The notes under the pieces: generated by a model
Databases searched by the model: none
What the model was told of the DNA's origin: nothing
The model's input: only the letters and a program-made list of their open reading frames with translations
In this document: positions 32,223 through 37,213 of the stretch, one piece after another
Layout of the letters: each line of letters begins with the position of its first letter
Position numbering within the stretch: position 1 is the first letter of the stretch
Position numbers and translations under genes: made by a program
Assembly (NCBI GenBank): GCA_937911345.1
Contig: CALDPP010000147.1
Coordinates: 1-37,513, forward strand
From: an uncultured euryarchaeote
GTDB taxonomy: Archaea; Thermoplasmatota; Poseidoniia; Poseidoniales; Poseidoniaceae
Direction: 5' to 3'
Length of the DNA stretch: 37,513 nucleotides

Positions 32223-32885
32223 ATGCGAGTGGCAATACTCTCCTCTGGCGGTAAAGATTCTGCCGCAGCTTGGTGGTGGGCTATTTGCAAAGGATGGGAT
32301 ATTGCAGCATTGGTAACGATGAGAGTCGTAGGGGATGACTCGATGATGTTTCAGATTCCAGGCACTGAGATTGTCCAACATCAAGCTAAACTCGCCAAAA
32401 TCCCATGGGTATCGGTAGATACTGAAGGCAAAGAAGATGAAGAGATTAACGACTTGGAAAATGCAATTTCAAAATTAGCAATCGATGCACTAGTTTGTGG
32501 TGCCCTCAGAAGCGATTATCAAAAAAGTAGAATTGAGCGAATGTGTGAAAAATTAGGAATTATAAGTTACACTCCTCTTTGGCACCAGTCCGGTCTGAAC
32601 CATATTTCGGGATTGGTAAAACACGGATTTGGTGTCATGATAACAAGCGTAGCATGCGATGGATTAACCGAGGAATGGATTGGTAAAATACTCGATGAAG
32701 AATCACTTGAATTGATTATCCAGTTGTCGGAGAAGTACCGATTTAACGTTGATGGAGAAGGTGGAGAGTATGAAACTTTAGTTGTCTATGGACCACATTT
32801 TGATGGGAAGATAGTGGTCACTGGTTCTACTGAGTGGCATGGCAGAAGAGGAGAACTTAAAATCAGCAATATTAGTTCAAGATGA
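32223..32885 (+). CDS. dph6: diphthine-ammonia ligase Dph6
   Basis: ATP-dependent amidase that completes diphthamide on EF-2. The N-terminal PP-loop SSGGKDSAAAW (7-17) is an N-type ATP pyrophosphatase motif, and the family-specific GEGGEYETLV (178-187) is present, along with SVACDGLTEEWIG. At 220 residues it is the short archaeal form without the C-terminal RidA-like domains of the yeast protein. The EF-2 target His is encoded in the same window. Its stop overlaps the convergent purB stop by 9 bases. Confidence 0.92.
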   Translation: MRVAILSSGGKDSAAAWWWAICKGWDIAALVTMRVVGDDSMMFQIPGTEIVQHQAKLAKIPWVSVDTEGKEDEEINDLENAISKLAIDALVCGALRSDYQKSRIERMCEKLGIISYTPLWHQSGLNHISGLVKHGFGVMITSVACDGLTEEWIGKILDEESLELIIQLSEKYRFNVDGEGGEYETLVVYGPHFDGKIVVTGSTEWHGRRGELKISNISSR

Positions 32886-34229
32886 GATTGCTGAACGGGC
32901 TAATTCGACAGCTTCATCAACGATTTCACCCGATACTCCAATGTGGTTCATAGGGTCAAACATGGCCTCTAGTTCTTCTGCAGAAAATGCAGCAGCTATT
33001 TCTGGGGTTCTACTACATACATCAATTAGTTCTATTTTCTTGTCAACCGCCTCGAAGGATGCTGAACGAAGTATTTCATGGGCTTCATCCCTAGGTATTC
33101 CATATTCCACCAATTCAATCATAACTTTTTCAGCCATAACTAAACCGCGCTGAGATTTTATATTTTCAAGACATCTATCACTATCTACCCACATGTTAGT
33201 CAAAACTTGTCGAGTTTTGGAGACTACATCTTCACAGAGTGCTGATGCATGCGATAATGTGAATCTTTCACTACTTGAATTTGCTAAATCACGCTCATGC
33301 CATAATAATGCGTTTTCATAAGTTGGTATTATCATTGACCTAACTATTCTGGCTAAGCCGGAGGCATTTTCAGATTTTATTGGATTCTTCTTGTGAGCCA
33401 TGGTTGATGATCCAACTTGCTTCTTGATATCAAAGCCCTCACCAGCCTCTTGAATTTCTGAGCGTTGTAAATTCCTAATCTCTTGGAGAATCTTTTCACA
33501 AGATGCAGCAACATTTGCTAGCCAAGAAACATACTCAATATATCTGTCTCTACCTACAACTTGTGTTGTTGCTAAAGGCACGCCTAATCCCAAGTGAGTC
33601 AAAATAAGTCTCTGTAATTCTCTGGCATTATCTCCTTGAGCAGCCCCTGTTCCAACAGCACCCAAGAATTTCCCAACTGCTATTCTTGGTGATGCTTCAT
33701 CCAATCTAACTAGTTGTCTACGTAATTCGTCAAGCCATACTGCTGCTTTTAGTCCAAAAGTGATTGGTACAGCTGCTTGTCCATGTGTTCTACCTAACAT
33801 GACAGTATCTCTTTCCCGTTCAGCAACATCGGCACAAACACCGATTAGAGAGCATAGTTGCTTCCTTAGTAAAACAATACTGTCTCTCAGCTGCAAGGCC
33901 ACTGCAGTATCAACAATATCATTTGATGTTGCTCCGAGATGAATACACCACCCGGCTTCACCTGCCGCTTCAGCCATTGCTTTCGTTAGAGCCATTATGT
34001 CATGCCTAGTCTCAGCTTCAATTTCTGATACACGCTCTTTGGTAACTGAATTGGGGTTTGCTATTGCAGCAACAGCGTCATAGTCTTGTTTGGAAACTTT
34101 TCCTAGTTGCATATGAGCCCAAATTAGTGCTCTTTCTACTTCGAGTTGTCTTTCGTGTCTTCCGAGTTCTGACCAAATATGTTTGAAGTCTTCATCGCCG
34201 TATCGGTAATCTAGTGGACAAAAGGCCAT
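32877..34229 (-). CDS. purB: adenylosuccinate lyase
   Basis: Fumarase/aspartase-superfamily enzyme of purine synthesis; it releases fumarate from SAICAR and adenylosuccinate. The signature GSSTMAHKKNPIKSENASGL contains the flexible catalytic loop. The N terminus (CPLDYRYG) and the LGATSNDIVDTA and GRTHGQAAVPITFG motifs also fit. The family N terminus suggests the ATG at 34229 (MAFCPLDYRYG); an in-frame ATG at 34235 adds two residues. The only ribosome-binding site, AGGAGGT at 34248-34254, is 12 or more bases from both. It has ideal spacing only for an out-of-frame ATG at 34242. Confidence 0.95.
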   Translation of the reverse strand: MAFCPLDYRYGDEDFKHIWSELGRHERQLEVERALIWAHMQLGKVSKQDYDAVAAIANPNSVTKERVSEIEAETRHDIMALTKAMAEAAGEAGWCIHLGATSNDIVDTAVALQLRDSIVLLRKQLCSLIGVCADVAERERDTVMLGRTHGQAAVPITFGLKAAVWLDELRRQLVRLDEASPRIAVGKFLGAVGTGAAQGDNARELQRLILTHLGLGVPLATTQVVGRDRYIEYVSWLANVAASCEKILQEIRNLQRSEIQEAGEGFDIKKQVGSSTMAHKKNPIKSENASGLARIVRSMIIPTYENALLWHERDLANSSSERFTLSHASALCEDVVSKTRQVLTNMWVDSDRCLENIKSQRGLVMAEKVMIELVEYGIPRDEAHEILRSASFEAVDKKIELIDVCSRTPEIAAAFSAEELEAMFDPMNHIGVSGEIVDEAVELARSAISS

Positions 34230-34247
34230 GTGCATTGGTCATGAACA

Positions 34248-34369: not shown

Positions 34370-34816
34370 ATGTCCGATAAGTCCGTGAATGTTGAAAGCA
34401 GAACTTCCTCACAAGACAAACGCTGGACAATAATGGCAGCTCTACTCGGGACTAACACTGCGGTGATGCTGTTTCAGGGGATTGAGCAAGAATCAGATCC
34501 CAAACAAATTCGTGAGATAGCACTTTCAATAATTGCCGCTACTTTACCATTTCAAGGAATCTACTTTCTCATTTACACCTATATGCTGGAGAATAATGGT
34601 AAATTGAGTGTTGAAGTGACTAACCGATTAGATAGAGCATCGGCTGTTTGTCAGTTAGTTGCATATCTCTCTCTAGTGGGAGTGGGGATGATGTGGTATA
34701 ATATCTCAAATTACGTGGGGATATTTTTCTTGGTATCAACAGTACTTGCTATTCTGTTCATTAGAATTGCAATGGCTCCAATTGAATCAGGAGAAATATC
34801 TTCAACGACTCAGTAA
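34370..34816 (+). CDS. small four-helix membrane protein
   Basis: No family recognised. The 148 residues have a polar Ser-rich N terminus and four likely transmembrane helices (about 19-38, 50-72, 92-111 and 114-134). A charged loop separates helix 1 from helix 2, and a Gly/Lys/Glu loop helix 2 from helix 3. No motif or conserved charged residue in the membrane was seen. It stands alone on the plus strand with a 134-base upstream gap, in which no Shine-Dalgarno site is visible, so it may be leaderless. Its stop overlaps the next gene on the other strand by 15 bases. Confidence 0.65.
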   Translation: MSDKSVNVESRTSSQDKRWTIMAALLGTNTAVMLFQGIEQESDPKQIREIALSIIAATLPFQGIYFLIYTYMLENNGKLSVEVTNRLDRASAVCQLVAYLSLVGVGMMWYNISNYVGIFFLVSTVLAILFIRIAMAPIESGEISSTTQ

Positions 34817-35047
34817 TTTTAGGGCTAACCCAGTGATAGTTGCCACAATTAGCAGTAAAATCATCATCGATACAGGCCCATACTGATTTTTGTCGTCCAT
34901 TGCGGTGCCAAGAAAACCGTCACGAGAAATTGCTTGTCCCAAACTATCTGCTTCTGAGTATTCACCCAAAGGCTTTCTTGGAATCCTTTCACCTTTTTTT
35001 ACAGTGAATTCAATCCCCTTGTCCGCCCCGTTATCTGACCCAGCCAT
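34802..35047 (-). CDS. small tail-anchored membrane protein
   Basis: No family recognised. The 81 residues have a soluble charged part (about 1-55) with GIEFTVKKGERIPRKPLGEY and one hydrophobic segment at the C terminus (about 58-77), ending in KLLSR. The layout suggests a tail-anchored protein facing the cytoplasm. ATG 35047 has no strong ribosome site. Its 3' end overlaps the previous gene by 15 bases. The two opposing genes could be a functional pair, but nothing in the sequence proves it. Confidence 0.55.
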   Translation of the reverse strand: MAGSDNGADKGIEFTVKKGERIPRKPLGEYSEADSLGQAISRDGFLGTAMDDKNQYGPVSMMILLLIVATITGLALKLLSR

Positions 35048-35130: not shown

Positions 35131-35724
35131 ATGCGATGGAGTGCAGATTCTGACTCAAACCGAATTCATTTGGCAGTTGAGGGCAGTGTGGGTGGGACGA
35201 CTTTAGGACTGCATATCTCTGCAGATGTAATTGAAAGTGGTGGCAGAGTATTATGGGTTGGATTAGATATGCCAAATCCGGATAGATTTCCTCAATTATT
35301 TAGTCATCTTTCGCCAGTTTCTTCATCGAGATTTCATGCCATGATGATTGCTGGAGCTTTAGACAAAGCGATTGAAGCGATAATATCTGCCGCCGCTACT
35401 TTACCATCTGTTGAACTTATCGTGTTAGATGATTGGTGTGAATCTAGTGGAAAAATACCAAAAAAGCAACTGGAACTGGTTTCAAATTTGAGCAAATCAG
35501 TCAATCCAAATATCAAAATCCTTCTGATTAGTAAGGGTAGTATTGACGCTAGTGGAAAAAGAGACGGGGATATTTTCGCTAGGGCTGAGGCATATTTTGT
35601 CAACAATGGATACGAAATCTGGACACTATCAAGGATTACTAGTGGCAATAACAGGAAACTGATATGTAATGGAGAAGTTACTAAATTGAAAATTATGGAG
35701 AATGGCTTGGAGTTGGCCGATTAA
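35131..35724 (+). CDS. RecA/RadB-like protein with degenerate P-loop
   Basis: The 197 residues follow the layout of a RecA-fold ATPase such as archaeal RadB. A first strand leads into a Walker-A position GSVGGTT (18-24), a helix and strand VESGGRVLWVGLDMPNPDRF follow (compare ViYIDTE in RadB), then a Walker-B-like strand VELIVLDD (94-101) and a KILLISKG strand (129-136). The invariant Walker-A Lys is replaced (GGTT in place of GKT), so ATP hydrolysis is doubtful. It may be a non-catalytic RecA paralogue or another P-loop relative. The assignment rests on pattern only. The upstream gap is 83 bases; no ribosome site is evident. Confidence 0.65.
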   Translation: MRWSADSDSNRIHLAVEGSVGGTTLGLHISADVIESGGRVLWVGLDMPNPDRFPQLFSHLSPVSSSRFHAMMIAGALDKAIEAIISAAATLPSVELIVLDDWCESSGKIPKKQLELVSNLSKSVNPNIKILLISKGSIDASGKRDGDIFARAEAYFVNNGYEIWTLSRITSGNNRKLICNGEVTKLKIMENGLELAD

Positions 35725-35966
35725 TCTTCGTCTTCCCCTAGAAGTTCTGCCATTTGTTCCAATGCATCATCGTCAGGTTCATCAAATTGTTGAGGGTTTT
35801 TTGCACCACCAGAAAGTTCGTCTGAACCAGCAATTTTCGGAGCATTTTCGTCAATCGATGTCAACCTATTCTCTCTTGCTTGCTTCGTGATAAAGTAGAT
35901 CATCACAAAAAATGAAATGGCAAAAATAATGTAAGCAACATTCTTTGTTGTATTCTCATCAACCAT
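35721..35966 (-). CDS. small single-pass membrane protein
   Basis: No family recognised. From ATG 35966 it has 81 residues: a short polar N terminus, one transmembrane segment (about 10-27, VAYIIFAISFFVMIYFIT), basic residues KQAREN, and an acidic tail rich in D and E ending GEDED. The positive-inside rule puts the tail in the cytoplasm. An alternative ATG at 36026 overlaps the tiaS stop (ATGA) and adds 20 residues; I could not decide between them from the ribosome sites, which are both weak. It is co-oriented with tiaS and probably co-transcribed. Confidence 0.62.
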   Translation of the reverse strand: MVDENTTKNVAYIIFAISFFVMIYFITKQARENRLTSIDENAPKIAGSDELSGGAKNPQQFDEPDDDALEQMAELLGEDED

Positions 35967-36022
35967 GATTGGCCTAAAGGTGGTATACTTTTGTAAATTG
36001 TGTTTGACAGAATTGATTATGT

Positions 36023-37213
36023 TCATTTCCAATCTATTGGTTTAGATAAATGCCTCATTGAATCACTTGGCGGCTGAACCCAATCGCTGAACGGTGGAAT
36101 TCGATTTACTTCTTCCCAAAGACTTGGACTACGTGTTTTACATTTCGGGCATCTAAGATCCTGATTTCTGCCCATAGATTTCAGCGTTACGTTGCATTTA
36201 CTGCACTTTGGACGCACTTTTTTTGGAGCACTCGACAAAACTCTTAATCGCTCCAAGTGTATTGTTTTGTCCATGGAAACTAAACCGTTGTACTCGATTT
36301 CATCGCCTTCTTCCAACCATTGCGCTAAATTTTTGATATCTCCAGATTCAGCAAATGCCATTAAATCAACGTCGTTGTTACAGCTTATTTTGACGGTTCC
36401 ACGTTGCTTTACTAAAATATGGTCCACAATGGCCGAAGAGTCGTGGCCAAGGTGGTCATCTGTTGCTTGATTGGTTTGGAATACCATATATCCCTTGACA
36501 GACTCAGTTATTGGTGAATCAAGTAGGTATTGAGCCGCTCTACTAGCAGCAAGCTCAGTTTTTGCTCTAACTCCAAATAATACCGGGCAATTACCTCTGG
36601 GTGAAATCAGGATTGAGTTAGATCTCAAATCTCTTGACATGAATGTATCAGGGTCGTTGTCTAACGTTGCAATTCTATCTAAATCAACCACTCTAGAATT
36701 GCCCGAATTTACAGAATCGTTAGTACGCCAACTTATGGCTTCAAAGGTAAATTCCCTACTTGGCCATGATACGGCTGCGGTTGCGCCAATTATACCGTGC
36801 CCTCCCCATGATTTGTCAGCATTTGGTATGTCGTTGATTGAAATCTCATTACGAACACAACTCCAATATGTATCTTCATTTGGTTGTAATTCAAACCATA
36901 CCATCCCTGGATCTGTAGGGCTTTGGGTTCTTGGATAATTTTCTGATTCCGTTAAATTCCCTTTCAATGGTTCAATTTTTTCATTCCACCACTTGTCTAA
37001 ATGGGCTAATAATTCAGTATAGTCATCTCCCTCAATTTTGATTGCTACAGCAGCATTTCCACGAGTCCTTTGCTTGGCAAACGGGTATAATCTAACTAAT
37101 CTCTGCGAACTGACTACATATTGTTTGGGAAGGTTTTGAATTAATTCGAACAAAGCATCTGTTGTGCAACCGCCCCCAATGTGGTCTGTATCGTCTAAAC
37201 CAAGCCAACCCAT
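36023..37213 (-). CDS. tiaS: tRNA(Ile2) 2-agmatinylcytidine synthetase TiaS
   Basis: Archaeal enzyme that joins agmatine to C34 of tRNA-Ile2 using ATP, so that the anticodon reads AUA. The 396 residues start with the TiaS motif GLDDTDHIGGGCTTDALFEL (5-24). An RLYPFAKQRTRGNAAVAI block follows. Later come an OB-fold-like domain (about 280-335) and a zinc ribbon with CSKC and CPKC (about 342-365). ATG 37213 has GAGGTGATT upstream and starts 4 bases after the preceding gene, implying one transcript. Confidence 0.94.
   Translation of the reverse strand: MGWLGLDDTDHIGGGCTTDALFELIQNLPKQYVVSSQRLVRLYPFAKQRTRGNAAVAIKIEGDDYTELLAHLDKWWNEKIEPLKGNLTESENYPRTQSPTDPGMVWFELQPNEDTYWSCVRNEISINDIPNADKSWGGHGIIGATAAVSWPSREFTFEAISWRTNDSVNSGNSRVVDLDRIATLDNDPDTFMSRDLRSNSILISPRGNCPVLFGVRAKTELAASRAAQYLLDSPITESVKGYMVFQTNQATDDHLGHDSSAIVDHILVKQRGTVKISCNNDVDLMAFAESGDIKNLAQWLEEGDEIEYNGLVSMDKTIHLERLRVLSSAPKKVRPKCSKCNVTLKSMGRNQDLRCPKCKTRSPSLWEEVNRIPPFSDWVQPPSDSMRHLSKPIDWK

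Follow-up and report, generated by a model that had tools for sequence, protein, structure and literature searches.

The window analyzed here, a stretch of 37,513 nucleotides taken whole from the genome of an uncultured archaeon of the order Poseidoniales (Marine Group II archaea), carries on its forward strand an open reading frame (ORF) that starts with ATG at position 35131, ends with TAA at position 35724, and encodes a protein of 197 amino acids. The gene, the sites within it that concern us, and its neighbors are as follows.

32877 to 34235, reverse strand: adenylosuccinate lyase (PurB), a syntenic neighbor (PF00206, PF10397).
34802 to 35047, reverse strand: left neighbor, a small ORF of 81 amino acids with a C terminus that is hydrophobic by eye; no Pfam match.
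35131 to 35724, forward strand: gene for a probable RadB-derived RecA-core protein of 197 amino acids without an N-terminal domain, assigned from family searches, predicted fold, and kinship with RadB.
35176 to 35199, forward strand: degenerate P-loop VEGSVGGT, residues 16 to 23 (GEAGSGKT in RadB), by gap-free alignment.
35194 to 35196, forward strand: codon GGG (Gly22) at the Walker A lysine position (Lys in 19/19 RadB rows, Gly in 67/97 family rows).
35416 to 35433, forward strand: Walker B strand LIVLDD, residues 96 to 101, followed by the family-specific W102 (D100 in 84/97 family and 19/19 RadB rows, W102 in 95/97 family rows).
35533 to 35535, forward strand: Lys135, at the position of an invariant glutamine of RadB (Gln in 19/19 RadB rows, Lys in 57/97 family rows).
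35721 to 36032, reverse strand: right neighbor, a small ORF of 103 amino acids with a segment that is hydrophobic by eye (cluster c7, in 11/13 Poseidoniales loci); no Pfam match.
36023 to 37213, reverse strand: TiaS (tRNA-Ile2 agmatidine synthetase), a syntenic neighbor (PF08489, PF22641, PF23783).

Across 13 Poseidoniales loci, one of them that of the window, the common gene order was SBDS, proteasome alpha, a diphthamide-synthase family protein, PurB, a small ORF, the gene under study, a small ORF, and TiaS, so that the surroundings have tRNA, purine, ribosome, and proteasome functions; PurB and the proteasome gene were absent from one locus (L163) and the right small ORF from two (L156 and L157), and the left small ORF was variable. 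The window also holds, at 34370 to 34816, a 148-amino-acid ORF that looks membrane-like by eye and has no Pfam match, with kin (cluster c14) in other loci of the same family. Outside the order, a RadB gene (L154, G340:C2) lies one gene away from TiaS in a single case; the RadB loci of three genomes of the same class have other neighbors, and most RadB loci were seen with short flanks only.

Taken alone, the window protein reads as an orphan, because it gave no significant match in Pfam, NCBIfam, or PDB sequences. A search with the single sequence matched 48 of 59 genomes, its own included, and a search with the family profile matched 190 of 243 Poseidoniales genomes, or 189 after the removal of one false match, an unrelated 739-codon P-loop ORF (L099 in G106). 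Residues were counted in a family alignment of 97 rows, to which 16 rows were added later to give 113; the false match L099, the fragments L087 to L090, L097, and L098, the window itself (L001), two sequences with runs of N (L018 and L024), and exact duplicates were excluded before counting.

An AlphaFold2 model based on 17 sequences (pLDDT 87.9, pTM 0.87) has the strand-helix alternation of the RecA core. Judging by their titles, we take the 50 best PDB chains found by Foldseek to be RecA-superfamily proteins, with RAD51 paralogues on top and RAD51C-XRCC3, BCDX2, RAD51, RadA, RecA, KaiC, DnaB, FlaH, and Twinkle among them; within the 50 matches listed, RadB (2cvf) ranked 15th, with a TMq of 0.67 and 18% identity. 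VIA-align gave a Z score of 19.5 (194 residues, 2.6 Å) to a RAD51-numbered chain of a DX2-CX3-RAD51 complex and 18.4 to chain X of a BCDX2 complex, which is presumably XRCC2. Model residues 2 to 197 align to RAD51-type cores, and the N-terminal domain of RadA and RAD51 is missing; the window protein is thus predicted to be a RAD51/RadA-type RecA core without that domain. A ParA-like P-loop, which the spacing had suggested, was dropped on the grounds that the 50 listed fold matches are all of the RecA kind.

Within this superfamily, sequence comparison points most strongly to RadB. Outside Poseidoniales the family profile found at least 82 matches, and all 58 of the 82 listed that could be checked against RadB positions (24 could not) fell on RadB and none on RadA. 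With hhalign, the family aligned to a set of 19 RadB rows at an E value of 1.9e-19 over 183 columns, a full-length match, to two single RadB sequences at 4e-14 and 3e-8, and to one RadA at 2e-6; the alignment to a KaiC-like protein of the window's own genome (E 0.006, probability 6%, 29 columns) was worse than that to RadB, and the comparison with a second RecA-like protein of that genome, encoded on contig C140, returned nothing useful. An origin in another RecA-fold lineage (DnaB-like, KaiC-like, or like phage Sak4) that has grown RadB-like would nevertheless agree with several results. The NCBIfam RadB model TIGR02237 matched 12 of 18 family members at an E value of 1 or less (best 6e-6), all below its curated cutoff, and DnaB models did nearly as well in the same single-member scans (DnaB_C in 7/18 members, best 1.7e-5; TIGR00665, best 2.5e-5), matching some members about as closely as the RadB model; the window protein had no TIGR02237 match listed at an E value of 10 or less, and its genome had none over the cutoff. 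Against PDB sequences the family profile found DnaB (E 5e-4, positions 7 to 73 only) as the only RecA-family protein among its matches, with no RadB or RadA chain at an E value of 10 or less. The family also occupies one side of a branch in the tree and RadB and RadA the other, so that it is not nested inside RadB, in a tree whose single RadA row forms a long branch among the RadB rows and which the program flagged for long branches that meet. Against such an origin stand the 58 outside matches and the full-length RadB alignment, as well as the outcome of a search for viral relatives with the A2 patterns, in which none of 21 pattern matches was confirmed; we regard it as highly improbable. The likeness to Sak4, which is phage-borne, is drawn from published description: PMC5928155 presents Sak4 as RecA-core-only and RadB-like, which it would share with the window protein, and also as having Walker motifs and a need for ATP, in which it differs.

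The distribution of RadB is in keeping with the same kinship. A RadB over the TIGR02237 cutoff was found in 0 of 48 sampled Poseidoniales genomes versus 124 of 146 others in the phylum sample, and the family therefore stands where RadB should be. A single RadB-model match was present in 47 of the 48 Poseidoniales genomes, and in the window's genome this match is RadA (PF08423, 294.7 bits); one genome (G075) has a second match besides. Three genomes of the same class, from family f3, which is probably Marine Group III, have a RadB with GKT that scores 147 to 152 bits, below the cutoff of 172.4. On these sequence grounds RadB is the most likely ancestor of the family, which may be sister to RadB or nested within it and counts as a putative ortholog. 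The preliminary description, made from the letters of the window alone, had proposed a RecA-like core and hinted at RadB; the predicted fold is RecA-like, and the checked outside matches and the hhalign result agree with the hint.

That description had also noted the loss of the invariant Walker A lysine beside a GSVGGTT turn and a LIVLDD strand. The turn and the strand are where it put them, at residues 18 to 24 and 96 to 101, and the lysine is indeed missing, Gly22 standing in a column that holds Lys in every RadB row. The P-loop aligns without a gap (GEAGSGKT in RadB, AEPGAGKT in Lys-bearing relatives, VEGSVGGT in the window), and the idea of a one-residue deletion in GSVGGTT was dropped because Lys-bearing relatives (EPGAGKTT) need no gap either. 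Sequencing error does not account for the missing lysine, because one genus after another has Gly or a different residue at this position. Whether relatives keep the lysine, a check that the preliminary description had proposed, has a twofold answer: two genera hold Lys keepers, and it is gone from all the others that were examined. The 97 family rows have G in 67, A in 9, K in 8, S in 7, P in 2, R in 2, I in 1, and C in 1, and the 16 added rows have K in 6, G in 5, R in 3, A in 1, and S in 1, so that Lys is kept in 14 of 113 rows and lost in 99. All 14 come from genera g8 (family f2) and g18 (the window's own family), both of which also contain Lys-less members, with Arg in g8 and Ile in g18. 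Lys-bearing and Lys-less genes occupy the same place in the locus and are therefore taken to be the same gene.

With Lys assumed to be ancestral and never regained, a tree built without the P-loop columns requires 8 losses; under the assumption of ancestral Lys the number ranged from 6 to 12 in 300 bootstrap trees and was 8 in 190 of them. Undirected parsimony needs as few as 4 changes at this column, and three independent pairs on well-supported branches differ there. The lysine thus appears, from the aligned sequences, to have been lost repeatedly within Poseidoniales, about 8 times if it is ancestral. Elsewhere in the P-loop, Gly21 is found in 87 and Thr23 in 86 of the 97 family rows, and genus g2 and some members of g10 have a loop that is wrecked beyond the lysine.

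The loss of the lysine need not mean that the nucleotide is no longer bound if Lys135 stands in for it. The RadB glutamine column that Lys135 occupies, which we take to correspond to Gln194 of RecA, holds Lys in 57, Ser in 15, and Gln in only 2 of the 97 family rows, and WNK kinases provide a precedent for a relocated lysine. All 57 of these rows lack Lys22, Lys135 and Lys22 never occur together in the 113 rows, and the Gly22 rows of family f1 all have Lys135 (51/51); the tree has three separate gains of Lys135, each in a Lys-less background, and Gly21, Thr23, and the Walker B aspartate (84/97) are mostly conserved. Yet Lys22 differs in no more than 3 independent pairs, too few for a sign test to reach 0.05, and Lys135 occurs in just 4 of 41 rows of family f2, most Lys-less members of which do without it, and in none of the 16 added rows. 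A stand-in role for Lys135 in nucleotide binding therefore strikes us as improbable.

Other RadB hallmarks have gone with the lysine. The KHR motif, which we take to be a DNA contact of RadB, is present in 19/19 RadB rows and in 0/97 family rows, so that DNA contact may have been lost and the role changed; the Glu that follows strand 2 is found in 19/19 RadB rows versus 38/97 family rows. H13, W42, W102, G107, S134, and R151 are near-constant in the family, in Lys-bearing and Lys-less members alike; H13 and W42 are each present in 96/97 and W102 and R151 each in 95/97 family rows, and RadB has different residues at these four positions. Such a pattern would suit a RadB fold repurposed for a role other than recombination, with H13, W42, W102, and R151 as a new binding surface, and the loss of KHR in 97/97 rows, the retention of Gln in only 2/97, and a locus of housekeeping rather than repair genes would suit it as well. 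However, the 8 aligned Lys keepers already have these residues, which are therefore no marker of a change of role when the lysine was lost, and conserved tryptophans can reflect core packing; because H13, W42, W102, S134, and R151 are near-constant with or without the lysine, its loss did not obviously change the protein's job. We consider a wholesale repurposing rather unlikely. Set beside RadB itself (TIGR02237, PDB 2cvf), the family shares the predicted RecA core without an N-terminal domain, the P-loop register, the Walker B aspartate, and the C-terminal layout, and it differs in the loss of Lys (99/113), KHR, and the glutamine, in being about 30 amino acids shorter, and in scoring below the curated cutoff. 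We have filed it as a RadB-derived variant, and not as RadB, because it lacks the Walker A lysine and KHR and does not reach the TIGR02237 cutoff.

The family is under continued purifying selection in most lineages: dN/dS could be calculated for 20 pairs, in 18 of which both proteins are Lys-less, and it always lies between 0.03 and 0.29, although these ratios are rough, several dS values being high and one further pair of the 21 saturated. Conservation across genomes and these ratios rule out a chance ORF or a pseudogene. The gene has nevertheless disappeared from eight genomes of three genera (four of g6, one of g3, and three of g4; loci L179 to L186 in genomes G079, G108, G039, G044, G036, G041, G121, and G056), in which a single contig carries its neighbors and the locus is otherwise intact. 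In these genomes the flanking ORFs are no more than 90 bases apart (measured in G036 from the right small ORF to PurB), compared with 532 to 967 bases in the window and seven other gene-bearing loci, and the eight look like clean deletions, not assembly gaps; incompleteness may explain some of the other genomes without a match. The deletions, together with the wrecked P-loops of g2 and part of g10, could mean that RadB is falling out of use in Poseidoniales and survives as a decaying, Lys-less remnant of little function, but the low dN/dS of Lys-less pairs, the order-wide conservation of the tryptophan and arginine residues, and the presence of the gene in 189 of 243 genomes make this quite unlikely. 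The order-wide and repeated loss of the lysine, the additional loss of KHR and the conserved glutamine, and the deletion of the gene in some relatives all go beyond the preliminary description.

RadB is an archaeal paralogue of RadA/Rad51 with a mediator role in recombination. On balance, we lean toward the view that the window protein is a Poseidoniales descendant of RadB that acts as an ATP-independent recombination mediator. In this reading, computation supplies the fold, the ancestry, the lost residues, and the selection, and the lack of nucleotide binding, the contact with RadA, and the mediator action are what we infer. ATP hydrolysis would be abolished and the protein would have a regulatory role. 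It would contact RadA with the same surface as RadB and help RadA filaments to form or persist, acting passively, by its shape, as a cap or primer, much as the yeast Csm2-Psy3 pair may do for Rad51; at a later stage the gene would have become dispensable in some lineages and been deleted. RadB promotes RadA polymerization, as reported for Haloferax (PMC5480776, PMC7776575), and its ATPase is described as weak (PMC4080772), so that loss of the ATP site may have cost little; according to PMC5928155, citing Komori 2000, RadB binds single-stranded DNA with or without ATP. A RadB-type protein could plausibly keep a structural role without its ATP site by analogy with the yeast Shu complex proteins Csm2 and Psy3, Rad51 paralogues that are reported to lack ATP sites, to be kept for recombination, and still to act with Rad51 (PMC4999836). 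Csm2-Psy3 differs in being eukaryotic, in working with Shu1 and Shu2, and in its demonstrated DNA binding. Human XRCC2, a component of BCDX2, the chains of which are among the best structural matches of our model, is likewise a RAD51 paralogue without an N-terminal domain and is reported not to promote ATP hydrolysis, but it keeps Lys54 and holds ATP through it (PMC7614784), which counts against an ATP-free reading.

More tentatively, the mediator may have kept its job while its ATP site was repeatedly dismantled, in a series that runs from Lys kept through Lys to Arg and Lys to Gly, Ala, or Ser to an erased P-loop and a deleted gene, possibly with Lys135 as a stand-in in some lineages. Genetic and biochemical data on the role of RadB disagree, as PMC5480776 relates, and its need for ATP is unsettled; in Poseidoniales a single locus provides a natural experiment in steps, with the lysine retained in some genomes, lost in others, and the whole gene deleted in a few. 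Should RadA still be helped by the Lys-less proteins, the mediator step needs no ATP, and archaeal RadB would be tied to the yeast Shu proteins. The literature that we searched, in which subscription journals were scarcely covered, yielded, among the papers listed, no report of a Lys-less RadB of Poseidoniales. Against the mediator reading we count the near-equal DnaB models, the PDB sequence search that found DnaB but no RadB or RadA chain, the absence of KHR, the housekeeping neighbors, and the looseness of an association with RadA to which we now turn.

RadA was present in 30/30, 29/30, and 29/30 genomes in the three sets searched. Its elbow residue was provisionally placed through an equivalence with A132 of the Pfu protein, drawn from PMC5480776, and through the Pfu and Haloferax sequences. 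In Haloferax, S101 of RadA is tied to RadB, and S101A was possible only with RadB present (Wardell 2017, PMC5480776). In our initial set the elbow residue was Ser in 4/4 Lys-bearing genomes and Ala in 16/17 without Lys, P-loop, or gene, the exception being G050. After the addition of 58 genomes there were 9 Ser and 3 Ala in Lys-bearing, 19 Ser and 40 Ala in Lys-less, and 0 Ser and 8 Ala in gene-deleted genomes, with 1 Ser and 2 Ala in genomes without a match (n = 3) and 4 Ser and 2 Ala in those with a canonical RadB (n = 6), counts that leave out the second RadA piece of G210. We do not claim a covariation between the elbow residue and the lysine: it weakened with more genomes, phylogeny may explain it, and its direction is opposite to that of Haloferax S101A. 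In G210 itself, RadA is in two pieces (L267 and L269, G210:C16:5903-7260) with overlapping query ranges of 2 to 213 and 162 to 345, as would follow from a duplication, an insertion, or a frameshift.

The second RecA-like protein mentioned above (L067, G000:C140:2794-3534) is encoded by a 256-codon ORF. It was rejected as a constant partner of the family, being found in only 48 of 115 Poseidoniales genomes. It has an intact GSGFAGKT P-loop, and its ORF adjoins a 414-codon ORF that, by eye, resembles a DNA polymerase relative.
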